A stretch of 43,186 nt of DNA from Rhodospira trueperi (GTDB taxonomy: Bacteria; Pseudomonadota; Alphaproteobacteria; Rhodospirillales; Rhodospirillaceae): the NCBI RefSeq assembly GCF_900101965.1, contig NZ_FNAP01000010.1, positions 1 to 43,186 on the forward strand, given 5' to 3'. Of the stretch, positions 5,501 through 41,090 are shown piece after piece. A model generated the notes under the pieces. It did not search any database. It was not told the origin of the DNA and worked only from the letters and a program-made list of their open reading frames with translations. Each line of letters opens with the position of its first letter. The stretch's first letter is position 1. The position numbers were made by a program, and so were the translations under genes.

Positions 5501-6001
5501 CCAGACGTACTCATGAACGACATAGATCAGGCGCTGGCGGACGGTTTCCGGATAGGCCTCGCTGTCCGACTCCCCGGCGGCCTCCAACGACCGCAACCAC
5601 TGATCGACCGCCGGTTCCAGGACCCCGGCATCGTTCGCGGCGGGCGGTGGCCGCTCCACCTCCACCTCCACCAGTTCGGCGGACGTCGCCCCCCTTTCCG
5701 GCAGGCGCAGCACGCCGTCATCAAGCGCCTGCAACAACAGAGCGACGGCATGCTTGCACTTCAGGCCCACCGGACAGGCGCACTCGGTCATCACCGTGGG
5801 CACGCCATGCCGGTCAAGGGCCAGGCGCGCCTCCGTCTGGTAGGGGAGAGAGCGGGTGCCCTTGACCGTGCCCGCCACGCGGGTTCCGTCCGGCGACGCG
5901 GACGTCACCGCCGCCCGGCCGGAGCGGTGATACGTCGCTCCACGCTGCCAAGTCACGGTGCCGAAGGCGAGCTTGAGGAGATGAAGCGGAGGAACCGGCA
6001 C
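2519..6001 (-). CDS. SWIM zinc-finger SNF2-family DNA helicase/translocase
   Basis: A protein of about 1160 residues with an N-terminal SWIM zinc finger (CxC...CxH in ECACPVGLKCKHA, residues 74-84) and a C-terminal SNF2 ATPase. Visible motifs are DDMGLGKT (Walker A, about residue 713), ILDEAQAIKN (Walker B, about 810), LTGTPVENNLGELW, LLFSQFTSML, KAGGVGLNLTAADTVI and DPWWNPAVEQQATDRAHRIGQ (about 1090). Bacterial SNF2 proteins move along double-stranded DNA and remodel nucleoprotein complexes; several belong to phage-defence loci. The frame extends to a GTG at 6127, but family-like sequence begins only around LLKLAFGTVTWQRG. I therefore prefer the GTG at 6001, which has only a weak GGGA 9 bases upstream. 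The gene follows the giant DUF4011 gene on the same strand after a 343-base gap. Confidence 0.9.
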   Translation of the reverse strand: MPVPPLHLLKLAFGTVTWQRGATYHRSGRAAVTSASPDGTRVAGTVKGTRSLPYQTEARLALDRHGVPTVMTECACPVGLKCKHAVALLLQALDDGVLRLPERGATSAELVEVEVERPPPAANDAGVLEPAVDQWLRSLEAAGESDSEAYPETVRQRLIYVVHEYVWPTGRREARVRPLSVRLLKDGSFSKSANPYDPSNISSAQGGAKFLRPSDRTILDSLARLRDGGSGMGGRTLSGDQGASILEAILETGRARWNDLTGPAMVRGEPRPGRATWTVEDDGRQRPVVVPDADTDASDPLAVLPMGPPWAITADPTVPDRVIASPLSLPIAPRTLAALLAAPALAPEQVEPVRGRLSTVLGDQVTGATPEVLPRALPPPRVIKEAPVPCLRIFPLEVQRSPYWMRYGGGTGTETLRLARPWFRYGGLDVPATETDAKVTRRDGDGLVQVVRAKGKERDALRALSRIGFTRAGNRYDLSIPQAHRDDLTLIPDEDLDSAWLAVLLEDVPRLRETGWQVEIADDFPLRPILIDGDVEAGLEQPGDGSGIDWFDLSLGVMVDGERVDLLPALLGVLEGIPADALDDLLDDVGEDIETLNVRAPDGRVFVLPFARIKPILRALVDLLGSDAGPAHGGRLLALDMADLTAFEDAVADSGVVFKGGEQVRALGRRLREAHGAPPEVTLPPAFTGTLRPYQSAGVAWMQLLREVGLGGILADDMGLGKTVQALAHLSIEKAEGRLDRPSLVIAPTSLMGNWQAEAAQFAPDLKTLVLQGPERKADFGRLGEHDLVFSTYPLLAHDGEVLAGQDWHLLILDEAQAIKNPQTTAAKTLRRLTARHRLALTGTPVENNLGELWALYDAISPGLLGDRKSFTKQWRTPIEKQGDTERQGRLSRRLRPFLLRRTKGDVLADLPPRTDIVEHVTLEANQRAVYEAIRLAMHTKVREAIAKKGLARSRIELLEALLRLRQVCCDPRLVAGARQAGRADKVRAAGSAKLDRLMEMLPELVAEGRRVLLFSQFTSMLDLIETAVTRAGIPYVMLTGQTRDRTSVVKRFQKGDMPLFLISLKAGGVGLNLTAADTVIHYDPWWNPAVEQQATDRAHRIGQDKPVFVHRLIAEDTIEVKMQTLKDRKQALADGLYDPDGATPFDISEEDVEFLLGNA

Positions 6002-6344
6002 GGATCGCAATCCCGGACAAGCGCGTAGGAAACATGATGATGAGCAGACGCCGACACAGCGTTGCCCACGAACCGTTGGGACAACCGTCGGGACGACCGA
6101 GTTGGTCGGACCATTGGGTTGGGGCACGGTTTTGTGAGACAGGACGCTGCGCTACCTTAGGGTTCCCCCGATCACTGCGACATCCTGGATGCCTTCCGGC
6201 ATGCTTGCAACGCTCTCATCGACCAGCCAAGCTGAATTTGATCTCTGGGTCCTCAATCCTGGCGGTCGTCGACCGCTCCATAAACGGTTTCGCATGGGGC
6301 AGGTCCGGAGACCGGGATCGGTTGTCCAACGTCGAACGACACGA
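6002..6344. other. intergenic gap between the two large helicase genes
   Basis: No family-like reading frame was found. An imperfect 12-base tandem repeat (AACCGTTGGGAC / AACCGTCGGGAC) lies at 6071-6094, within the possible N-terminal extension of the SNF2 gene. The length suggests a separate promoter for the SNF2 gene, but I cannot point to clear -35 and -10 boxes. Confidence 0.45.
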
Positions 6345-9300
6345 TCACGCCAACACCCGCTCCAGCCTGTCGCGCGCGCTCTGGCTGAGGCGGGCGAGGC
6401 CGATGGCCCGAGCCAGTGCACCAGGATCGCCCATCAAATCCAGGTCGGCGTTGATGGAGCGCAGTTCCGCCGCGCAGATGTAGTCCACCGAGCGGACGTC
6501 GTCGTCGCGACCCTGGCAGCGGGCCGGGGCCGGGTGGCCGTGGTCCGGCGCCTTGGCCCAATAGAACACGCCGACGTCCTCGGTGGTCCGTGCCGCGTGG
6601 TCGCCGGCGACCTCCAGCACCCGCTCGCGGATCAACCGGCCCGCCCGCTTGAACCCGTGATGACGCGCGATGCGCCGCACCAGGATGTCCTCGTGGACCG
6701 GGCCTTCGGTGTCCACCACATGCCGGACCATGGCGGCCAGCCGGCCGTCATAGGAGTCGTCATAGAATGCCTCCGGATCGGAGGCCAGATCCGGGGCATT
6801 GAACGTCGAGACGACGTAGGTTCTGGCCACGTCGAGCGGCCCGGCGTCGCGAGGGGGCGCCGGGCTGTCCGCTGATCTGCTCGCGGTCTCCCCATCGGTC
6901 GGGGAGCGGTCGGCGGCGGCCAGCGGACGCGGGGCGGCCGGAGCGTCGAGGGGGCCGACATCGCCGAAAAGATCGGTATTCCGCGCTGTGCCATGTGTTT
7001 CCGCCGGGCCGGTGGAGCCGGTTCCGGCGGGTGCGGCGGTCTCCTTGTGGGGCATCCCTTTGGTCTCCGTTTCGGTTTGCGCTTCGGCTTCGGCCATGGC
7101 CTTCGCTTCGGCCTCCGCCTTCGCGGCCGCCGCCTCGGCCCGCCGCGCGCGGTCGGCCTCCAGATGCGCCCGCAGGGCCGCGTCGACCGTCCCCAGGGCC
7201 GCGTCGGCGTGGTGCCACCAGTCGGTCGACCAGATGCGGAACAGCGTCCAGCCCAGGCTTTCCAGGACCGCCTGCCGGATCTTGTCGCGTTCCCGAGCGT
7301 TGGCGGCGCTGTGGTACATGGCCCCGTCGCATTCGATGCCGGCCAGATAGCTGCCGGGCAGGTCGGGATGCACGACGCCCAGGTCGACGCGGTAGCGCGA
7401 CACGCCGATCTGCGGATGAACCTCCCATCCGCGCTCGCGGAGCGCCCGCAGCACGGCACTCTCGAATGGTGATTCCACGTCGCCGACAGACCCGAACACA
7501 GCGCTGCCCAGCGCGGACGGGCCGCGCTCGGCGAACTCCAGGAAGTGCTTCAGGTCGGTGACGGCGCGGGCCTGCGTGCGCGACAGGTCGATCCGCTCTG
7601 GCGCCAGGGATGAAAACACCCGCATCTCGAACCGTGCCCGGGTCAGCGCCACGTTCAGGCGGCGTTCGCCGCCCTGTTTGTTCAGCGGCCCGAAGTTCAT
7701 GGTCATGTGGCCGGTTCGGTCGGGACCGTACGTGATGCTGAACAGGATCACGTCGCGCTCGTCGCCCTGCACGGTCTCCAGGTTCTTGACGAACACGGGT
7801 TCCTCCAGGCCGTCGGCGGCGAAGGCCCATTCGATCTCCGGCTGTCGGCCGCGCGCCTCGTCCAGCAGGTTCTCGATCAGGGTCTGCTGTTCCGCGTTGA
7901 AGGTCACGACGCCAATCGACAGCGCCCGCACCGCCTCGTCCGGGTGCGTCAGGCGGCGCACCACCTCGTCGACGACGGCGCGCGCCTCGCCCTCGTTATG
8001 CCGGGCCTTGCCGCGCGCGTAGTGTCCCTCGGTTCGCACCAGGGCCACACCATGGTCGCGCACCGACGGCGCCGGGAAGGTGACGAGCTGGTCCTCGTAG
8101 TAGCGGCTGTTGGAAAACGCGATCAGGCTTTCCCGACGTGAGCGGTAGTGCAGCGACAGCACGCGTTCGGGAATGCTGGCGCCGCGCATTTCGTCGAGGA
8201 TGCTTTCCAGCGTAACGTCGGTTTCGACATCCCCGTCGATGTCGTCGTCCGAGCGGTCGAAGAAATTGGTGGGCGGCATCTGCTTCGGATCGCCGGCGAC
8301 GATCAACTGGCGGCCGCGCGCGATGGCGCCGACGGCGTCCCACACCGTGATCTGCGAGGCTTCGTCGAAGATGACCACGTCGAAGGGTGTCTGCTCCGCC
8401 GGCAGGTACTGGGCCACCGACAGGGGCGACATCATCAGGCACGGTGCCAGCGTCCCCAGCACATCCGGAATCTCCTGCACCAGTTGGCGGACCGGCTTGT
8501 GGCGCGCCTTCTTCTGCAGTTCCCGGTTCAGAATGCCCCACTGGGAGCCACGGGTGACGGTCTCCTGATCCGGCATGTCGCCGCGCAGGCGGGCGACGAT
8601 ATACGCGGCCGTCAGGGCCTGGAAGGTCTCGTCCACCTCCCTGAACTTCTGGATGGCCGCCTCGTGCTCGGCCGTGGAGAAGGTCCGCAACACCTCGTCC
8701 TCGCCGATGATGGCGGCGGCCCACCATGTGCAGTACGCCGCTTCAAAGACATCCCGGGCCTGTGTCGGGTCGATCCGTCCGGCCTCCAACGCCTCGACCA
8801 TCGGCATCAGATCGAGGTCGATGGCCTGGGTGCGGCGGCGGCGCCACGCACACCACTCCCGAAGCTCCGCCCGGGCGCCGGCGATTCCCGCCGCCATGTC
8901 GACCACCGCGTCGAGGTCCGGCGCGGCGGCGGCATCGGTCCCCGCCGACGGGGCGCCGCGCTGGCGGTCGAACGCCTGGTGAGCCTCGCGGTAGGCGTCC
9001 ATGGCCTGATCGAGCGAGCGGGCCACCACCCCGACCGGCGCGTCGGCGGCCAGCAGGTCGTTGCCGTCGTGGAGCAGGTCGCGCAGGCGCGCCCGCAGAG
9101 CGGTCAACGCGGTGGCGTCGTCGGCGAGGCGGCCGGCGGCCTGCCGGGCGCGCTGGCCGAGGTCGCGCAGCCGGTCCATGTCGTCGGGCGCGCTGTCGTG
9201 ACCGCGCCAGCCCTTAACGGCCTCCAGGATCGGTCCCAGGCGGTCGATGGCCTCGCCGTGGCGCCGCAGCCGCGCGAGAACGGGGGCGTCGTGCTCCGGA

Positions 9301-12300
9301 TCGGGTTTGCCGGCTGTGTTGCCGAGCCGCCGCATCTCCTTGCGGATGCGCCCCTTCAGGAAGGCGCGCTTGGGCCACCATGTCTCGCGGGCGACGGCCC
9401 ATCGCCGAGCCAAGGCATCGCCATCCAACTCGCGCCAGGCCATGGGATCGAACGGAACACTGAGATCCCGCTGGGCCGCCAGATAGTCCCGCAGATGCGT
9501 CACCGCCTGGTCGAGTGCCTCCAGGCGCTCGGCACCGTCGGGACCGAAGGCGCAGGCGGTCTGGCGGCGATGCGACTCCCGCAGCACCTGGGCGAGGTCC
9601 ACAAGGGCATCCAGGCGGCCGGGTGTGAGCGTCGGACAGTCGAAGCCGACGGCGTTCGCGAAGGCGGCGCAGGCGGCCCGCAGGTCGCGGGCGGTTCGCG
9701 TCAGGGTCTCGGACCCCTCAACGAGGTGCGTTTCCCACTGCGGGGACCAGTCGCCGCCCAGCACGCCCCGCAGCGGGCTCGCGGATAGATTGCGCACGGC
9801 GCCGGCCTGGATCGCCAGCGCCTCGACGGCCTCGCGCATGGCCTCCAGGGTCGCCTCGTCGTGCATGTCGGCCTTGGGCCAGCGGAGCGAGACGTGCGCC
9901 GCCAGGGCTGCGTCCCGGATCGACACGCCGACGGCGTGGTGCGGCGTCAGGCCGTTGCGGTGGCGCGCATGCAGGTGATCGACCACCTGATTGAGGCGGT
10001 CGCGCAGGGTGCGCAGGCGCTCGGCCTCGCGGTGCCAGGTGGCGGCGTCGTGCGGCTGCCCGCCCGTCCACGCCTCGCCAAGCTGGCGCAGCACATCGGC
10101 CTTGCGCGCCTTGTTGGAGTGCAGTTGCAGGCAGAAGGGACCCAGCCCGATGCGCTCCAGCCGGCGGTGAACCACCTCCAGGGCCGCCGCCTTCTCGGAC
10201 ACGAACAGCACGGACTTCCCGCTGCCCAGCAGGTGGGCGATCATGTTGGCGATGGTCTGGCTCTTGCCGGTGCCGGGCGGCCCGATGATGACGAAGGTTT
10301 TGCCCCTGTCAGCCGTGGCGATGGCCGCCATCTGCGACGAATCCGCTGGCAGTGGCGCCAGCAGGTCGGACGGCGCGTACAATCGGTCCACCTGGGCGCC
10401 GTCGACGAAGCGAATGTCGCTGGGGAACGGGTCGCGCGGCGTGTCGATCAGGTGCTGGACAACGGCGTTGCGACGCAGGGCGTCGGTGCGATCGACCAGA
10501 TCCTTCCACATCAGGTACTTGGCGAACGAGAAGTGGCCCAGGACCACGTCCTCGACCACCTCGAAGCCAGGCGCGTCCTTGATCGCGTGGCGAACCCTGG
10601 TCCAGATGCCGGCGACGTCGATGCCGCTGTGATCCTCCGGCAGCGGGCCGTCCAGCCCGCCGATGTGGATGTCGAAGTCCTTGCGTAACATCTCCAGCAG
10701 CGTGGTGTTGAAGCGCGGCTCGTCATCGTGGGCGGTCAGCCTCACGCCGCTGCGCACCGAGGTTCGGTCCAGCGCCACCGGCATCAGGATCAGGGGCGCG
10801 CGGAAGCGGCGGTCGTCCTTGTCATCGCGTTTCCACAACAGGAAGCCCAGGGCCAGGAACAGCGTGTTGGCGCCGCCTTCCTGCAACGCGGTGCGGGACC
10901 GGCGGTAGATTTCGACCAGCCGGCGAGACAGCTCGGCCTCCGGCAGATCGACCAGGACCTGATTGTGTTCGAGAGCGTCGGCCGCGTAGTCCTGGGTGAT
11001 CGCCTCACCGGTGCGCTGACGGTGCAGGTCCGCATCCTGCCCGGGCGCGGAGCGGTGCGGCACCGGCTGGACGGCGATCCGGGCGTTGGCGGCAAGCTTG
11101 TCTTCCAGCAGACCCGGATCGGGGCAAATGAGGGACAGACTGGTGGTGCTGGCGCGGTGGTGCAGCATCGGATTGCGCACCGAGAGATCGAGCAGCCGCC
11201 GGTGCCAGCGCTCCAACCGCCCCGCCGGGGTGTCGTCCTGCACCGGCGCCTCGGGCGCGGCGTCGAAGCCGGGCAGCGGTGGCGGTGCCTCCAGCCCCAG
11301 AACCACGGTCGGCGCCGCCAGGGCGGCGGGCTCCATCCCGTCCGCCGGGCCGCTCTTCAGGCCCAGGGGGGCGATCCGGAACGCCCGCGCGCGGCGGATG
11401 TCGACGGCGGCGCCGAACGTTTCGTCGCGCTCTGGCAACACCTGATCGCCGGCCGCCTCGATGGCGCGCGTGAACGGCGGCGGCGGGTTGGACGTGACGT
11501 AGGTGGTCTCAAACAGCAGCAGTTCCTTCAGCGCCACCCGCTTGCGCAGCGGCTCGGCCTCGTCAATGACGATGGTCGACAACTGCTCCGGTTGCAGCCA
11601 CACGCCGATCAGCGCGTGGCCCTGCGGCAGCACCACGACGGGATTGAGCCCCGCCTGCTCCAGCGCCGAACAGAACAGCATGGTGAGGTCGAGACAGGTC
11701 GCTAGGCCACTGTCCATGATCTGGCCGGGCAGCCGGATCTTCTGGCCGTCCCGCTCGAAGCTGGCCGGCGGCATGGCGTAGTTGAGGCCGAGGTTGGCGA
11801 TGGCCGTGTAGATGGCGGCAGCGATCTCCCAGACGCGCTCGCGCCGGCCGGACTGATAGCCGTCGATGCCGCTCGGCCGGCCGGCGTGGCGCAACACCTC
11901 CGCCGCGTCACCGAGAATCCGGTCGACCACCGGGTCGTTGGGCACCGAGAACGCCGCCAGTTGCTCCGGCATGTAACCCGCGCCGCCCCACTCGTTGTAG
12001 GCCAGCAATTCGATGGGGCGGGTGGTTTCGGCCAGGCACACGCCCGCATGTTCGGCGCGGATGGTCAGCGTGCCGCGCACCGCATCGGCCAAGTTGAGCA
12101 GGAACTGGCCGTCGACCTCGACGTCGGGGGTCTTCACCGCCACGGACGTCCCCGGCCCGATCCGGTCCAGTGTCCAGACCGCATCGCGAAAGAACGGCGG
12201 CGTCGCGGTGGCGGTCACGGTCACATTGTCGAGGGCGGTGTCGGGACCGCGGTTTTCCACGCTCAGCGCGCGCACAACCGGAAACGCGCTCTGGTGGCAA

Positions 12301-27100: not shown

Positions 27101-29449
27101 TCACCCCCTAGCGCCCGCCCGTTTGCGGATGAAGGTGTCCAACCCGGCCAACTGTGCCTCGTTCAGTTCAAAACGGACATGGGTCCCGGTTCCCGTCTTT
27201 GCAACGACACTTCCCGTCATGGACCCAAGTTCCGGAACATCCATGGTGAAGGCATGACCCCGTTCGACGTCAAGAGCCCGATCCACGGTGCCGACCCCAC
27301 TGCGGGCCAAATCCTGCAACAAGCACGACTGGCTCGCGCCACCGCCCAGGTTCAGCGTCACCGCCACGTTGACGGTATGCAGGGCGCTGTCCCGCCGATC
27401 ATCGTCCGACCCGCCGCGCATCAGCTTTTCCAGGGCATCCTGCATCTGCCTGACGCGCGCACGCACATCTTCGGCGGACTGCTTGACGGATCGGGCGTGT
27501 TCGCCGGTCACGGAACTGCTCTCCAGGACCTGCCCGATGTTGTCGGAGGACTCCTGCGTGCTGTGCGAGGCCTGCTGAGCGTTCTGACTGATTTCCTGGG
27601 TCGCGCCCGTTTGTTGCTCAACGGCGGCCGAGACCGTCTGGGTGATGTCGTTGATTTCGCCGATCACCCTGGCGATGTCCTCAATGGCCGTCACGGCCTC
27701 CCGCGTGGCCGCCTGCATGCCGCCGATCTGGTTGGCGATATCCTCGGTCGCGGTGGCGGTCTGGTTGGCCAGCGTCTTGACCTCGTTGGCCACCACCGCG
27801 AAGCCTCTGCCGGCATCCCCGGCCCGCGCCGCCTCGATGCTGGCGTTCAGCGCAAGCAGGTTGGTCTGTTTGGCGATGTCGCTGATCATGTTGACCACCT
27901 CGCCGATCTGGTCGGCCGCCTCGGCCAGTCCCTGGATCCGCTGATTGGTGGTTTCGGCCTGCCTCACCGCCCGATGGGCCGTCTCCGTCGAGGCCGTCAT
28001 CTGACGCGAGATTTCGCCGATCGACGCGGCCATCTGCTCGGCGGCCGCCGCGACCGCGTCCACGCCGTGGGCCGCGTCCCGCGAGGCCGACGCGGCGGCA
28101 TCCGAGCGCGATTCCGTGTGTTCCACGGACTCGGCCATCTTCAGCGCCGCCTGGTGCATGGCGTCGGCCTGTTGCTGCACAAGAATAATGGCGCTGCGCA
28201 CCTCCTCGTCCAGCGCATTGGTAAGCGCGAACATCTCGGCCCTGACCTTGCGGGCGTTGCGTCGATGCAGCGCCTCCTGCTCGGCAGCCATTTCCTTCAG
28301 TTTATAGCCGTTGTCCTTGAACACCTGGACGGCGTCGGCCATGTCGCCGATCTCGTCCCGGCGGGACCGGCCCGGAATTTCGACGGACAGGTCATCGTGC
28401 GCCAAGCGTTCCATGGCGGCCGTCATCGCCGTCAGCGGCCGGCTGAGCAGACGGCGCAGCATCAGCACGATCAGACCCATCACGCCCAGGGTGGCCAACG
28501 GATTCACGACCGCCTGCACGGTTGTCGAACTTGACTGCGTTTCGTTCAGCCCCGTCACCCGCTGGCCCAGCCGTGCGGCGATGGCCCTTGAGGCCTCTTC
28601 GACCTCTCTACGGCGGGTTTCGGTCTGCTCCTTGAGGGCCGCCATCTCACGCTGCTGCTCGGCCTCCATCGCGGTCATCCGCTCGACCGAACGTTCCTCG
28701 ACGGCGATCAGCGACTCCCGCGAGACCGCCAGTTCAAGGACACCCCGGATCGGGTCTTCGACGCCATGGCACCCCTGACATTCCGGATCGTTGGTCAGCG
28801 TGACATAGGAATAGAGGACCGGCCGGAGCACTCCCCCTGAATCCTCGACCTCGCCAGGCTGCTCCGCCGAACCATCCGCGCTGGCCAGCGCCTCCCTCAG
28901 GCCGGACTCGCGGTCCGCCGGAATGGAGACCGGGTTCTCCCGGCTGCGGCGCTCGAAATAGGTTGTGCCCAGGAGTCGATTGACATCCTTGATTGTGTCG
29001 TTGTCCGAAAAGGCCTGGACCCCCGTTGTCCGCCACAGCCCGATGTCCAGCACATCCGGGATCTGCGACAGATTGAACATGATGTCCTCGGCCGTGGTGG
29101 CTTCGCCGCTCATCATGGCGGCGCGGATCATCTCCGTCGCGGCGGATGACAGGCCCTCGTGCTTGCCGGCGATGAACCGCCGCTCGCCCAGGGTCTCCCC
29201 GTGAGTCTCGGTTTCGGTCACGGCGTGCTCGGCTGCCTGACGGGCAATCTGCGTCTCCACCAGCGCGTCATGAGTCTCGCCGATGACGGCGTTCTTCTCG
29301 GCCAGGATGCCGCTCACATCGTCCGCGAAGTCCTGCGTTTCGGACCGAACGATGGTCGAAAAGTAGTAAACGAGGGCGATATTGACGATCGCGATGATGG
29401 CAACAAGAGCGACGACAACGGCGGTGATCTTCGCGGTCAACGACTTCAT
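27101..29449 (-). CDS. methyl-accepting chemotaxis protein with CxxCH haem motif and PilZ-like tail
   Basis: A 782-residue membrane receptor. TM1 is about residues 9-31 and TM2 about 313-333. The periplasmic part (32-312) carries CQGCH at 224-228, a c-type haem attachment motif, in a Tll0287/DUF3365-like setting, followed by a coiled-coil. A HAMP domain (about 335-390) and the signalling hairpin ([35 protein letters not shown], about 545-600) follow. The last 95 residues look like a PilZ domain ([11 protein letters not shown] in place of DxSxxG), so c-di-GMP sensing is possible though motifs are imperfect. The haem suggests redox or gas sensing. AGG precedes the ATG by a few bases. The STAS gene lies downstream. 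Confidence 0.92.
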
Positions 29450-30342: not shown

Positions 30343-31134
30343 TTGCGCGCCATCCTGCCCGAGCGCGAACCGCACGAACTGACGGACGCTGTCACCGGCA
30401 TGGCACATCCCCTGCGTTCCTTTCTCGGGCTGGTCCTGAGCGCCCTGCGTGACCTCGCACCGATCATTCTGGTGATCGGGTTTTTCCAGATCGTCGTCCT
30501 CCAGCAACCGTTTCCCAACCTGGGACCGATCCTGGTCGGCCTGCTTCTGGTCCTGCTGGGACTGGCGCTGTTCATCCAGGGACTGGAGATGGGCCTGTTC
30601 CCGCTCGGCGAGTCCATGGCCCACGCGTTCGCGCGGAAGGGCAGCCTGGTCTGGCTGCTGGCGTTCGCCTTCGCGCTGGGGTTCGGCACCACGGTGGCGG
30701 AACCGGCCCTGATCGCGGTGGCCGCCGAGGCGGCCGAGGCCGTGGCTCAGGCTGGCCTGATCGAGCCGGACGCGGACAGTCAGGCCACGTACGCGTTGGG
30801 CCTGCGCTATACGGTGGCGCTGGCCGTCGGGCTGGCCATCCTGGTGGGTGTGTTTCGCATCATCAAGGGCTGGCCGGTGCCGGTTCTCATCATCGGCGGC
30901 TACCTGATCGTGGTGGCCCTGACCTTCATCGCGCCGCCGGAGATCGTCGGCGTGGCCTATGATTCCGGCGGCGTGACCACCTCCACCATCACCGTGCCGC
31001 TGGTGACGGCCCTGGGGGTGGGGCTGGCCTCCATGCTGGGCGGGCGCAATCCGCTGATCGACGGCTTCGGCCTGATCGCCTTCGCCAGCCTGACCCCGAT
31101 GATGTTCGTCATGCTCTACGGCCTGCTGTATTGA
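30343..31134 (+). CDS. DUF1538 integral membrane protein, first copy
   Basis: Up to 263 residues with about six or seven membrane helices. Conserved blocks shared with the next gene are [29 protein letters not shown] and [20 protein letters not shown] followed by [14 protein letters not shown]1538 is an uncharacterised family; the paired copies and glycine-rich signatures suggest a transporter. Start is uncertain: TTG at 30343 has AGGA directly against it, while ATG at 30400, near the usual family start, has no clear site. It leads an operon of five genes. The glycine- and threonine-rich [10 protein letters not shown] motif is a likely substrate or ion site, by inference. Confidence 0.88.
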
Positions 31135-31153
31135 ACCGGGAAGGGACCGCGCC

Positions 31154-31945
31154 GTGTCCACCCTGATCCAGTTGATCGATACCCTGTGGACCACGATCCT
31201 GGACGTGGCGCCGATCCTGCTGATCCTGGTGCTGTTCCAGGTTCTGGTGCTGCGTCAGAAGGTCCCGCACCTGCGCCGCATGATCCTGGGGTTCCTCTAT
31301 GTGGTGCTGGGCCTGGACCTGTTCCTGGTCGGCCTTGAGATGGCCCTGTTTCCCCTGGGCGAGATCATGGCCGCGCAGTTGACCGACCCGGCGTTCATGG
31401 GGGTCGCACGGGACGCGGCCGGTGGCCTGGGGTGGCGGGACTATCTGTGGGTCTATGCCTTCGCCGCCGCCATCGGGTTCTCGACCACCATCGCCGAGCC
31501 GGCGCTGATCGCCGTCAGCCTGAAGGTCACGGAGGTTTCGGGCGGGGCCGTCAAGTCCTGGGGCCTGCGCGTGGCGGTGGCCATCGGCGTCGCCTTCGGG
31601 GTCTCCCTGGGCGCGCTGCGCATCATCACCGGCTGGTCCTTGCCGATCCTCATCGTCATCGGCTATGTGGTCGTCATCGTTCAGACCGTGATCGCGCCGC
31701 GCCAGATCATTCCCCTTGCCTACGATTCCGGGGGCGTGACAACCTCCACCGTTACCGTTCCGCTGGTCACGGCCCTTGGGCTGGGCCTGGCTTCCAACAT
31801 CCCGGGGCGAAGCCCCCTAATCGACGGCTTCGGGCTGATCGCGCTGGCCAGTCTGTTTCCCATGATCACCGTCATGGGCTACGCGCAGATCGGCGAGTTG
31901 CTGACCCGGCGCGCCGCCCGCCGCACCGCGAGCGAGGATTCATGA
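31154..31945 (+). CDS. DUF1538 integral membrane protein, second copy
   Basis: A 263-residue paralogue of the upstream gene with the same ordered motifs: [49 protein letters not shown], then [14 protein letters not shown]. The pair probably forms a heterodimer or a two-half channel. AAGGGA lies about 8 bases before the GTG at 31154, 19 bases after the previous stop. Its own stop overlaps the P-II-like start as ATGA. The C-terminus is a short basic cytoplasmic tail (LTRRAARRTASEDS), suitable for contact with the regulator. Confidence 0.9.
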   Translation: MSTLIQLIDTLWTTILDVAPILLILVLFQVLVLRQKVPHLRRMILGFLYVVLGLDLFLVGLEMALFPLGEIMAAQLTDPAFMGVARDAAGGLGWRDYLWVYAFAAAIGFSTTIAEPALIAVSLKVTEVSGGAVKSWGLRVAVAIGVAFGVSLGALRIITGWSLPILIVIGYVVVIVQTVIAPRQIIPLAYDSGGVTTSTVTVPLVTALGLGLASNIPGRSPLIDGFGLIALASLFPMITVMGYAQIGELLTRRAARRTASEDS

Positions 31946-32292
31946 AGTTCAAGCTGATCATCGCCAGCACACCGGACGACATGACCGACGCCATTGCCGA
32001 TGCCGCCCGCGAGGAGGGGGCCACCGGCTGCACGATCCTGACCAACGCGCGCGGACAGGGGCTCAAGAAGGCCAAGACCTTTCTGGGCCTGGACCTCGCG
32101 GGCGCCCGCGACGTGGTGCTGATCCTGGTTGAGCAGCACCTAGGGCGGCGCATCCTGGAAGCCATCGGCCGCGCCGGCCATTTCGACGCCAGTCCCGGCG
32201 CCGGCATCGCCATCATGATCGACGTCGAGGACGCCATCGGCCTGAACAGCCAACTTCATACCATCCAGACCGAGATCGAGGACGAGATATGA
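31942..32292 (+). CDS. P-II-like regulatory protein
   Basis: A 116-residue protein with the P-II ferredoxin-like order: KFKLIIASTPDDMTDAIADA, EEGATGCTILTNARGQGLKK, VVLILVEQHLGRRILEAIGR and GAGIAIMIDVEDAIGL. The T-loop (about residues 37-57, RGQGLKKAKTFLGLDLAG) has no tyrosine, so GlnD-type uridylylation is not expected. The GDGKIF B-loop is replaced by SPGAGIAIM. P-II-like proteins bind ATP/ADP or other nucleotides and gate transporters; here the obvious client is the DUF1538 pair. It overlaps both neighbours by ATGA. Confidence 0.87.
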   Translation: MKFKLIIASTPDDMTDAIADAAREEGATGCTILTNARGQGLKKAKTFLGLDLAGARDVVLILVEQHLGRRILEAIGRAGHFDASPGAGIAIMIDVEDAIGLNSQLHTIQTEIEDEI

Positions 32293-32723
32293 CCCAGCGT
32301 CCCTATGTGCCGATCCGTCAGGTGATGTCCGAAACCCCCTACCTGATCGAGGGCATGGCCACCGTCGCCCAGGCCGTGCGCATGATGAAGGACAAGGGGG
32401 TCAGTTCCCTGGTCATCCGCAAGCGTCACGAGGGCGACGAGTTCGGCATGGTCGTGATCCAGGACATCGCCGACAAGGTGGTGGCGCAGGACCGCTCACC
32501 CGACCGGGTCAACGTCTACGAGATCATGAGCAAGCCGCTGATCTCGATCCAGGCGGACATGGACGTGCGGTACGCGATCCGGCTGTTGGGCCGCTTCCGC
32601 CTGTCCCGCGCGATCGTCATCGAGAATGGGGACCTGGTCGGAATCGCCACCCTGCGCGACCTTGTTCTCGCCCACCTGATCGGAGACGGCCCCGTGCCGC
32701 CCGCGCCGACGGAGACCACCTGA
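32289..32723 (+). CDS. tandem CBS-domain protein
   Basis: A 144-residue protein made of two CBS domains, about residues 7-62 (VMSETPYLIEGMATVAQAVR, GVSSLVIRK) and 76-132 (IMSKPLISIQADMDVRYAIR, RLSRAIVIENGDLVGIATLR). CBS pairs bind adenine nucleotides and gate channels or enzymes. Its start overlaps the P-II-like stop (ATGA) and its stop is one base before the exchanger start, so all are co-translated. A second adenylate sensor next to a P-II-like one is the notable feature. The protein is soluble and complete. Confidence 0.9.
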   Translation: MTQRPYVPIRQVMSETPYLIEGMATVAQAVRMMKDKGVSSLVIRKRHEGDEFGMVVIQDIADKVVAQDRSPDRVNVYEIMSKPLISIQADMDVRYAIRLLGRFRLSRAIVIENGDLVGIATLRDLVLAHLIGDGPVPPAPTETT

Positions 32724-32724
32724 C

Positions 32725-33714
32725 GTGATTGTCGCCTCCCTGTTCCTGATCGCCGGCATCGTGCTGCTGCCGGTCGGCTCCAACATCCTGGTCAGCGGCG
32801 CGGTCGCCTTGTCGGAGCGACTGGGCATCTCCCCCTTGGTGGTGGCCCTGACCGTCGTGGCCTTCGGCACCTCGCTGCCGGAGCTGGTGGTCTGCGTCGA
32901 TGCCGCCCTGGACGGAGTCCCCGGCATCGCCATCGGCAACGTCGTGGGATCCAACATCGCCAACATACTTCTCATCATGGGCGCGGCGGCTCTGCTGGCG
33001 CCCATCGCCTGCCATCAGCCCCGCGCCTTCCTGCGCGACAGCCTCATCATGATCGGCGCGACGGGCCTGTTCATCGCCGCCGCGCTGTCGGGCGTGATCC
33101 CGCGCTGGCAGGGCGGCGGCATGCTGGGCCTGCTGGTGCTGTTCGTGCTGTACTCCTATTGGCGGGAGTCCGCCGGAAAGGACGCGGCCGACGCCCATCT
33201 GGCCGAGGTCGAGGAGTTCGAGGGACTCAAGAACCGCTCCTGGATCGTCATCATTGGAGCCATCGCGCTGGGCCTTGTCGGCGTGGCGGCCGGGGCCAAC
33301 CTGCTGGTGGACGGCGCCGTGGTCATCGCCAGTGAGCTTGGCGTGCCCGAGGAAGTCATCGGCCTGACCATGGTGGCCCTGGGGACCTCGCTGCCGGAAC
33401 TGGCGGTCGCCGTGACGGCGGCCATGAAGGGCCAGCCCGACGTCGTGGTCGGCAACGTCGTGGGCTCGAACATTTTCAATATCCTGGCCATCCTGGGCGC
33501 GACCGCGCTGGTGATCCCGGTGGAGATCCCGGCCCAGGTGCTGCGGTTCGACATCTGGGCCATGGCGGCGGTGTCCATCCTGATGGTCCCCGTGATGCTG
33601 AGCGGCAGACGCATGGGCCGTGCGGAGGGGATCCTGTTCCTGGCCGCCTACGCAGGATACACGGCGCTTCAGTTCTTCGGCGTGGACCGCGTGCTGGGCG
33701 CCGTGAGTGCCTGA
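32725..33714 (+). CDS. Ca2+/Na+ (cation) exchanger, YrbG/CaxA-type CaCA family
   Basis: A 329-residue exchanger. The two inverted alpha repeats are clear: VVAFGTSLPELVVCVDAALD with IGNVVGSNIANILL, and MVALGTSLPELAVAVTAAMK with VGNVVGSNIFNIL. These GTSLPE and GNxxGSN blocks carry the ion-binding residues. About ten helices; a hydrophilic loop lies at about residues 150-170. The GTG start at 32725 is one base after the CBS stop. Members exchange Ca2+ for Na+ or H+ across the inner membrane. Being last in the DUF1538/P-II/CBS operon, it probably works on the same ion gradient. Confidence 0.92.
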   Translation: MIVASLFLIAGIVLLPVGSNILVSGAVALSERLGISPLVVALTVVAFGTSLPELVVCVDAALDGVPGIAIGNVVGSNIANILLIMGAAALLAPIACHQPRAFLRDSLIMIGATGLFIAAALSGVIPRWQGGGMLGLLVLFVLYSYWRESAGKDAADAHLAEVEEFEGLKNRSWIVIIGAIALGLVGVAAGANLLVDGAVVIASELGVPEEVIGLTMVALGTSLPELAVAVTAAMKGQPDVVVGNVVGSNIFNILAILGATALVIPVEIPAQVLRFDIWAMAAVSILMVPVMLSGRRMGRAEGILFLAAYAGYTALQFFGVDRVLGAVSA

Positions 33715-40730: not shown

Positions 40731-40865
40731 GCCGGCCTTCCACTCCAGAGACGGGACGGAGCGGATCGCCACGGACGCATCACCGTCGCGCGGACCAGAA
40801 TGGACGCCGCGCGGATTCGGCAACGCTCCGCCGGAGCACCCCGCCCGAGGGAGAAACACGGTTCA

Positions 40866-41033
40866 CGGCAGGTCTCCTGGCTCGCGGGTCACCGCGTCCG
40901 CCCGACCTTCCCGGAGCCCGAAGGCGCCAGTGGTGTGGAATGGGCGGTCGCTCTCCGCTCACAGTTGCGGGGGCAGCTCCGGCCTTGGTCCGCGCGCCCG
41001 CTGGGGGCAAGGATCGCACCGGCATTCCCTCTT
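40866..41033 (-). ncRNA. cobalamin riboswitch upstream of nrdD
   Basis: Read on the minus strand, the canonical elements occur in order: GGGAATGCCGGTG, then GGAGCTGCCCCCGCAACTGT with GAGCGG, CCACTGG, GGGAAGG and the closing GCGAGCCAGGAGACCTGCC. These are the conserved core and B12 box of the cobalamin riboswitch. A 135-base leader separates it from the nrdD start. A GCTCCG-C-CGGAGC hairpin at 40825-40837 lies in that leader, but there is no T-run, so control is probably translational or Rho-linked. B12 would switch the operon off. Confidence 0.93.
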
Positions 41034-41043
41034 GGCACGACGC

Positions 41044-41059
41044 ACCCCATATCTGGAGC
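41044..41059 (-). promoter_or_regulatory. NrdR-box-like operator 1
   Basis: The 16 bases ACCCCATATCTGGAGC match 10 of 16 positions of the NrdR consensus (acaCwAtATaTwGtgt), centred at 41051.5. It pairs with the second box exactly 31 bp away. Confidence 0.6.
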
Positions 41060-41074
41060 GAGCAGTGACCGTGA

Positions 41075-41090
41075 ACACGAGATATGGTGC
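41075..41090 (-). promoter_or_regulatory. NrdR-box-like operator 2
   Basis: ACACGAGATATGGTGC matches 12 of 16 consensus positions, centred at 41082.5. It covers the likely -10 of the nrd promoter, the expected place for the NrdR repressor. Confidence 0.68.

Follow-up and report, generated by a model that had tools for sequence, protein, structure and literature searches.

A 43,186-nucleotide stretch of the Rhodospira trueperi genome (NCBI RefSeq assembly GCF_900101965.1, contig NZ_FNAP01000010.1, positions 1-43,186 of the forward strand; the whole of it is called the window here) carries at 30343-33714 a cassette in which two paralogous DUF1538 membrane proteins, a P-II-like signalling protein and a stand-alone pair of CBS domains are encoded in close succession. 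A DUF1538 transporter accompanied by a P-II-like gene, and often by a CBS gene, recurs in other genomes, and its standing as a conserved genetic module is strongly supported. Our proposal, at a probability of roughly 0.65, is that these genes specify a cation/proton antiporter of two subunits, gated by a dedicated P-II-like protein, and that the CBS-pair protein adds a second sensor. What is new is the pairing of P-II with DUF1538/UmpAB, the CBS or second P-II partner, and the breadth of the arrangement; a search of the open-access literature, mostly at the level of titles and abstracts, found no paper linking P-II or CBS with DUF1538.

Gene layout of the window locus

A first-pass annotation, made from the letters alone, had described five genes in a fixed order with short overlaps or gaps and with motifs shared between the two DUF1538 proteins, and all of this was confirmed by open reading frames and Pfam matches:

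30400-31134, plus strand: umpA-like DUF1538 membrane protein (PF07556, 224.5 bits; UmpA model 362 versus UmpB model 173.2 bits)
31154-31945, plus strand: umpB-like DUF1538 membrane protein (Pfam, 227.5 bits; UmpB model 328.5 versus UmpA model 208.8 bits)
31942-32292, plus strand: P-II-like signalling protein of 116 residues (Pfam P-II, 27.5 bits; P-II fold in the predicted structure)
32289-32723, plus strand: stand-alone tandem CBS-domain protein of 144 residues (Pfam CBS, 62.4 bits, in two stretches)
32725-33714, plus strand: Na+/Ca2+ exchanger of the CaCA family (Na_Ca_ex, 215 bits; TIGR00367, 236.9 bits)

The curated Pfam cut-offs (22.6 bits for DUF1538, 25 for P-II, 24 for CBS and 24.9 for Na_Ca_ex) were passed in every case, by the P-II-like protein only narrowly. 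The PF07556 profile is covered from position 1 to 211 and from 1 to 210 of its 211 positions in the two DUF1538 proteins, which have two 10-residue motifs in common; the two CBS domains within 144 residues make the fourth product a CBS-pair (Bateman) protein, and the exchanger lies above the TIGR00367 cut-off of 179.65 bits. Four-base overlaps join umpB to the P-II gene and the P-II gene to the CBS gene, while the gap is 19 bases between the DUF1538 genes and one base between CBS and the exchanger. The umpA-like gene could begin at ATG 30400 or at an upstream TTG at 30343, of which the ATG appears the more likely start because the alignment to the UmpA model begins, at model position 3, just after it. 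This is the only DUF1538 pair in the genome, and a chance arrangement is implausible because the gene order is kept in other genomes. As a five-gene unit, the earlier proposal holds for the DUF1538 pair, the P-II gene and the CBS gene and fails for the exchanger, which is a member in this genus only.

Conserved linkage of DUF1538, P-II and CBS genes

One scan of genome contigs for the conserved pattern returned at least 595 stretches, at least 594 of them encoding a relative, and the best 80 are referred to here as the named loci. These span Alpha-, Beta- and Gammaproteobacteria together with metagenome-assembled genomes (MAGs) labelled desulfobacterial and Bacteroidota; as they are the closest relatives, further samples were added. 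Among these best 80 of at least 594, a P-II-like gene stands directly behind DUF1538 in 79, the exception (L066) having 720 bases to the end of its contig and no P-II in the three forward frames, and a CBS-pair gene follows P-II in all 77 loci with enough contig. One host of the cassette is the free-living marine bacterium Reinekea blandensis MED297 (L077).

The phylum of the window was sampled separately by fetching 80 regions, which yielded 60 loci with 62 DUF1538 clusters, hand-picked so that a genus mostly supplies one or a few; five of these loci belong to a set of 20 close relatives, and a small number of genomes are represented by two loci or clusters. Left out of the 80 were 14 regions fetched as P-II loci without a nearby DUF1538, one with DUF1538 at the contig end (L156), four same-genus loci that are counted apart, and one empty region (L211). 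P-II lies directly downstream in 57 of the 62 clusters, or in 53 of 57 when the four loci found through P-II matches (L142, L146, L153 and L215) are set aside. The CBS gene comes next in 27 of 39 determinable clusters with separate DUF1538 genes, whereas fused clusters have it in 5 of 5 cases when P-II is single and in 0 of 12 when P-II is tandem. Eight plasmid records matched, and the six that were opened all carry P-II. Regular absence of P-II from DUF1538 pairs elsewhere, the observation that the first-pass annotation had named as telling against it, is thus not what these samples contain (P-II in 79 of 80 named loci, 57 of 62 own-phylum clusters and 6 of 6 plasmid loci). The expected CBS partner fared unevenly, being present in 77 of 77 determinable named loci, in part of the determinable own-phylum clusters (32 of 56), and in none of the 12 of the fused, tandem-P-II type or of the 6 plasmid loci.

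Further gammaproteobacterial regions gave the same association, with P-II in 17 of 17 and CBS in 16 of 17; P-II follows directly in 15 of these and after about 1.5 kb in L238, and it lies upstream in L242, where the order runs P-II, CBS, DUF1538. Six more regions chosen for long DUF1538 frames all contain both P-II and CBS.

The linkage was also evaluated across whole genomes. DUF1538 occurs in 126 of 398 sampled genomes of the phylum (window genome included) and in 43 of 213 genera. When a profile built from alignment A2 of the cassette P-II was run against the same 398 genomes with the window genome left out, matches at E<2e-11 were found in 119 of 125 genomes with DUF1538 and in 5 of 272 without it, at a cut-off chosen after seeing the gap in scores (the next genome lacking DUF1538 stands at 7.7e-11). 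Of the six misses among DUF1538 genomes, three have weaker matches (6.5e-8 to 1.4e-5) and three have none. We rely on the counts, which are uncorrected for relatedness, and not on a Fisher test.

Cassette architectures and a DUF1538-P-II fusion

Two architectures account for these loci. In the main type (type I) the DUF1538 domains are encoded separately, or fused in five own-phylum loci, and are followed by one P-II and usually by CBS; in the second (type II) both DUF1538 domains sit in one protein, a tandem P-II protein comes next and CBS is absent. The second type was found in 12 of 12 own-phylum clusters that combine a fused double DUF1538 with the second kind of P-II (the DUF1538 frame of L206 is broken) and in 4 of 4 fused clostridial plasmid loci, and two alphaproteobacterial plasmids pair separate DUF1538 genes with a single P-II of the second kind. 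Some genomes hold both types, for example that of L178. In L146 a single strand encodes, from 5559 to 9627, a fused DUF1538, P-II, CBS, another P-II and then a separate DUF1538 pair, so that this second pair has P-II just upstream and not downstream.

One locus joins the partners within a single reading frame:

4494-6443 of L246, minus strand: DUF1538-DUF1538-P-II in one open frame of 650 codons, with no N or stop inside

This frame scores 438.4 bits for DUF1538 (cut-off 22.6) and 31.6 bits for P-II (cut-off 25) in Pfam, and as a gene fusion it is genetic evidence that speaks for a direct link between P-II and DUF1538.

A tree built with FastTree from 112 DUF1538 domains (54 hand-picked loci plus the window), with long branches that leave deep placements unsure, separates first from second DUF1538 domains with 3 changes of label and fused from separate arrangements with two changes (first-domain rows). 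Eight labels taken jointly require 20 changes, compared with an average of 70.6 after shuffling; the label for a single P-II without CBS is scattered over the tree, with 8 changes.

Relation of the DUF1538 pair to the UmpAB antiporter

The first-pass annotation knew of no described function for this gene set, which is wrong for its membrane component, as UmpAB of Halomonas zhaodongensis, itself a DUF1538 pair, has been measured and reported by Meng et al. in 2017 (PMC5484666) to be an Na+(Li+,K+)/H+ antiporter of two subunits. According to that report, co-expression of umpAB in E. coli KNabc, which lacks three antiporters, restored tolerance of salt (0.4 M NaCl, 30 mM LiCl) and of alkali, vesicles containing UmpAB exchanged Na+, Li+ and K+ for H+, optimally at pH 9, and UmpB co-precipitated with UmpA in what is described as a hetero-dimer (PMC5484666). 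The published clone is reported to comprise umpAB and two upstream open reading frames, and the pair functioned in E. coli without P-II or CBS (PMC5484666); the terms P-II, PII and CBS do not occur in the main text of the paper. By our arithmetic, these four open reading frames take up almost all of the 4.2-kb clone, whose end therefore probably lies not far behind umpB. UmpAB homologues are treated as salinity adaptations in two papers on cable bacteria (PMC12093952, PMC10030654), and DUF1538 appears in a table within a section on key pH-adaptation genes in a 2026 paper (PMC13255231).

By the NCBIfam equivalog models for UmpA and UmpB (NF041627 and NF041628), the adjacent window genes encode one UmpA-like and one UmpB-like protein, at scores that stay below both equivalog cut-offs (362 of 490 and 328.5 of 500 bits). 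Because neither cut-off is reached, we do not claim the same substrate range and use the name DUF1538/UmpAB-like. The UmpA model, run for the Halomonas pair on sets of 34, 197, 369 and 20 genomes, gave no score over its cut-off, and the top three scores in these sets (423, 416 and 408 bits) all fall in UmpAB-P-II-CBS cassettes.

The predicted structure of the UmpB-like protein (mean predicted local distance difference test, pLDDT, 87) contains two discontinuous helices with breaks at residues 114-115 and 196-200. Beside these breaks lie E115, P116, D191, T196 and T197, which are invariant in 17 aligned rows and which we propose as a putative cation/proton site on the strength of the model:

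31496-31498, plus strand: codon of UmpB-like E115, at or beside a predicted helix break
31724-31726, plus strand: codon of UmpB-like D191, at or beside a predicted helix break

Sequence searches of the PDB with the UmpB-like protein and with the DUF1538 profile gave no match, and no known transporter fold is assigned to the UmpB-like model, its best Foldseek match standing at E 0.84 among the listed 50 of 133. Nor did an internal repeat emerge when halves of DUF1538 were compared as profiles at four cut points (none significant; best probability 1.5%).

The P-II-like protein

The third gene product is assigned to the P-II superfamily by its Pfam score and by its predicted fold. Its AlphaFold2 model (pLDDT 84.8) matches GlnK, SbtB and CPII structures by Foldseek, best of all GlnK1 (E 2.4e-6, template modelling score 0.65), and the cassette P-II profile finds P-II chains in the PDB at E 2e-5. 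The region corresponding to the T-loop is recognizable in the window:

about 32050-32106, plus strand: T-loop region of the P-II-like protein, with the motif KTFLGL at 32074-32091

The motif K-T-F-F/L-G-L is conserved, reading KTFLGL in the window and KTFFGL in many relatives, and the T-loop is on average better conserved (3.27 bits) than either of the core helices (2.74 and 2.81 bits).

In its sequence features the cassette protein is not a classical GlnB or GlnK. The T-loop tyrosine, which is the uridylylation site of classical GlnB/GlnK, is absent from 30 of 30 rows of the cassette P-II alignment. The archaeal GlnB/GlnK sequence GDGRIFV...VKIR aligns to GTGIAFQ...VGLE in the cassette profile, which thus lacks the basic residues that follow the B-loop glycines and those of the last strand. 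As these basic residues, which we take to hold the ATP phosphates in classical P-II proteins, are missing, the ligand of the cassette protein may differ from the classical one. The cassette P-II shows no C-terminal CGPxGC motif.

The exchanger and other neighbouring genes

A CaCA exchanger stands behind the cassette in the window, in all four same-genus loci (L200-L203) and in 1 of the 80 named loci (L070, an alphaproteobacterial MAG); none was present downstream in the 62 own-phylum clusters or the 6 plasmid loci, some of whose contigs are short. The exchanger is a genus-specific addition outside the conserved cassette, and the coupling to Na+/Ca2+ exchange that the first-pass annotation had envisaged does not extend to the cassette at large. 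In one further named locus, L114 (774-2704), from a MAG labelled Flavobacteriaceae, a CaCA-family exchanger lies upstream of the cassette.

A third recurrent partner was sought within 4 kb and none emerged, the commonest other family being present near 13 of the 105 loci. In 9 of the 105, for example L058, CBS is directly followed by an amidase-like gene (AmpD-like, judging from its sequence), which is probably local synteny. In two genomes of one family an orphan P-II gene (L138 5894-6223 and L140 5922-6251) precedes a gene that reads, from its N-terminus, as a flavin-dependent oxidoreductase; the orphan P-II genes of L144 and L147-L149 have other neighbours.

Riboswitch control was examined at Rfam gathering scores in the window and six cassette loci, which gave a single match, far from the cassette: a cobalamin riboswitch at 40850-41088 of the window on the minus strand (113.4 bits against a gathering score of 31.5). 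Also on the minus strand of the window, at 27101-29449, a methyl-accepting chemotaxis protein has CxxCH (ECQGCHG) in its N-terminal sensor part and a sub-threshold match to Mcp40H-20, and is possibly a heme-binding sensor.

Proposed mechanism and alternative explanations

We take P-II and CBS to be regulators because UmpAB is active in E. coli without them. In the mechanism that we favour, the P-II-like protein, probably a trimer, would dock through its T-loop on the cytoplasmic face of UmpAB and, under the control of a small-molecule ligand that is probably an adenine nucleotide, would block or release transport. A ligand-controlled brake is the likeliest role for P-II because in two structurally known precedents a P-II protein plugs a transporter from the cytoplasm. 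A metal or other ion is also possible as the ligand, as has been proposed for PII-NG (PMC7726332). Where present, the CBS-pair protein would serve as a second nucleotide sensor on the same UmpAB complex, a role that a second P-II domain may take over in the type without CBS, and the assembly could be a trimer of UmpA-UmpB heterodimers beneath the P-II trimer. In the window genus, the exchanger added behind the cassette could use the Na+ gradient made by the antiporter. Whether this extends to a widespread class of P-II-gated monovalent cation/proton antiporters, equipped with CBS (type I), with a second P-II domain (type II) or with a fused P-II, we consider an even bet.

Several observations weigh against a P-II-gated antiporter with a CBS sensor. 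Neither P-II nor CBS is needed for transport itself, judging from Halomonas UmpAB in E. coli, and the window proteins fall short of the UmpA and UmpB equivalog scores. The trimeric arrangement of UmpAB is a guess, since the searches gave neither a solved DUF1538 structure nor a matching fold. Within the P-II-like protein, the 25-30 loop (3.70 bits) and the last two strands (3.32 and 3.37 bits) are better conserved than the T-loop. The fusion is known from one assembly (L246, genome G437, 92% complete with 5% contamination), its P-II part is without the KTFFGL motif, and there is neither a second DUF1538-P-II fusion among 247 loci nor a second full-length one among the matches listed for 394 genomes of the same order, 94 of them matching. 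Of the 56 own-phylum clusters in which the presence of CBS could be determined, 24 are without it, as are all 6 plasmid loci. In two genomes of one family (L180 and L185) the DUF1538 pair and the P-II-CBS pair lie on separate contigs (the latter in L150 and L151), and three further own-phylum clusters have no P-II directly downstream: the second pair of L146; L183, whose genome has a cassette-type P-II elsewhere (L149); and L194, whose genome (84% complete) gave no match to the cassette P-II profile. Subfamily P-II genes also occur as orphans away from DUF1538 (L137-L141, L143-L145 and L147-L149). At E<=0.001 the genome-level contrast narrows to 122 of 125 genomes with DUF1538 against 78 of 272 without, the latter presumably ordinary, distant P-II proteins, and some rows of profile A2 come from cassettes in the very genomes that were searched.

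Some of these points speak for an alternative in which the P-II-like and CBS proteins are co-transcribed sensors with other targets, such as enzymes or gene expression, and are linked to DUF1538 by shared conditions of use. The orphans in genomes lacking DUF1538 (5 of 272), the unlinked pairs in one family and the independent activity of UmpAB fit that explanation, which we nevertheless regard as rather unlikely: it does not account for the single DUF1538-DUF1538-P-II frame of L246 or for cassette surroundings in which no other gene recurs, and the linkage survives changes of order (L146 and L242) and extends to Bacillota. That the DUF1538 proteins of this lineage exchange something other than Na+ or K+ for H+, the antiport in E. 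coli being one activity of a broader family, seems improbable. The sub-cut-off scores of the window proteins leave room for it, as do reports of Na+/H+ antiport for MFS, CDF and UPF0118/AI-2E proteins, from which it appears that such assays can bring out activity in members of several families; but the invariant E115, D191, T196 and T197 at the predicted helix breaks would fit a cation site, and the salinity context of UmpAB homologues in the cable-bacteria papers (PMC12093952, PMC10030654) also points to cations. Least probable is that the DUF1538 transporter is nucleotide-gated and works as one functional unit with Na+/Ca2+ exchange. The exchanger does follow CBS by one base in the window, with company in all four same-genus loci and in L070, but a single downstream occurrence among the 80 named loci and none among the own-phylum clusters or plasmids, some of them on short contigs, argues otherwise.

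Comparison with known systems

The closest described relative of the cassette is UmpAB, which it resembles in having two paralogous DUF1538 proteins, one UmpA-like and one UmpB-like, in adjacent genes; it differs in that the window proteins score below both equivalog cut-offs and in that the published clone is reported to carry two open reading frames upstream of umpAB (PMC5484666). The fifth gene of the window is a clear member of the TIGR00367 calcium/sodium antiporters and lies outside the conserved cassette.

Three P-II systems offer parallels for gating. PII-NG is reported to cluster with CzcABC (Geobacter GSU2134-2137), an association said to hold for most PII-NG (PMC7726332), and resembles the cassette by gene context, a P-II gene beside a proton-driven cation antiporter; CzcABC, however, is a metal efflux pump, whereas the cassette P-II is linked to DUF1538. 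SbtA and SbtB likewise combine, in one operon, a sodium-linked transporter with a P-II-like gene; the T-loop of SbtB is reported to enter a hydrophobic cleft of SbtA (PMC8352866), and SbtB is among the matches of our P-II model. SbtA is a single 10-helix protein that is not among the listed 50 fold matches of the UmpB model (best E 0.84), and membership of DUF1538 in the SbtA family was rejected, with no PDB sequence match and no listed fold match below that value. The cassette further differs from SbtA-SbtB in that it often includes a CBS protein or an extra P-II domain and in that no CGPxGC motif was seen. In AmtB-GlnK a transporter is described as plugged by its linked P-II protein (PMC10710835); the cassette shares the linked P-II gene, and GlnK structures are the top matches of its P-II model, but DUF1538 is not an ammonium channel and the cassette T-loop has no tyrosine (0 of 30 rows).

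P-II proteins are well established as metabolic gatekeepers of transporters, and a 2023 review describes cases in which the transporter brings in ammonium, nitrate/nitrite, urea or bicarbonate (PMC10710835). If our proposal is correct, P-II control of transporters would be extended to pH and salt homeostasis, and a small-molecule signal would bear directly on Na+/K+/pH homeostasis, with P-II and CBS stacked on one transporter. The antiporter described in 2017 gains candidate regulators, for which the E. coli system already in use offers a test, and the comparison suggests that many bacteria switch a UmpAB-type exchanger by a small-molecule signal in the cell.

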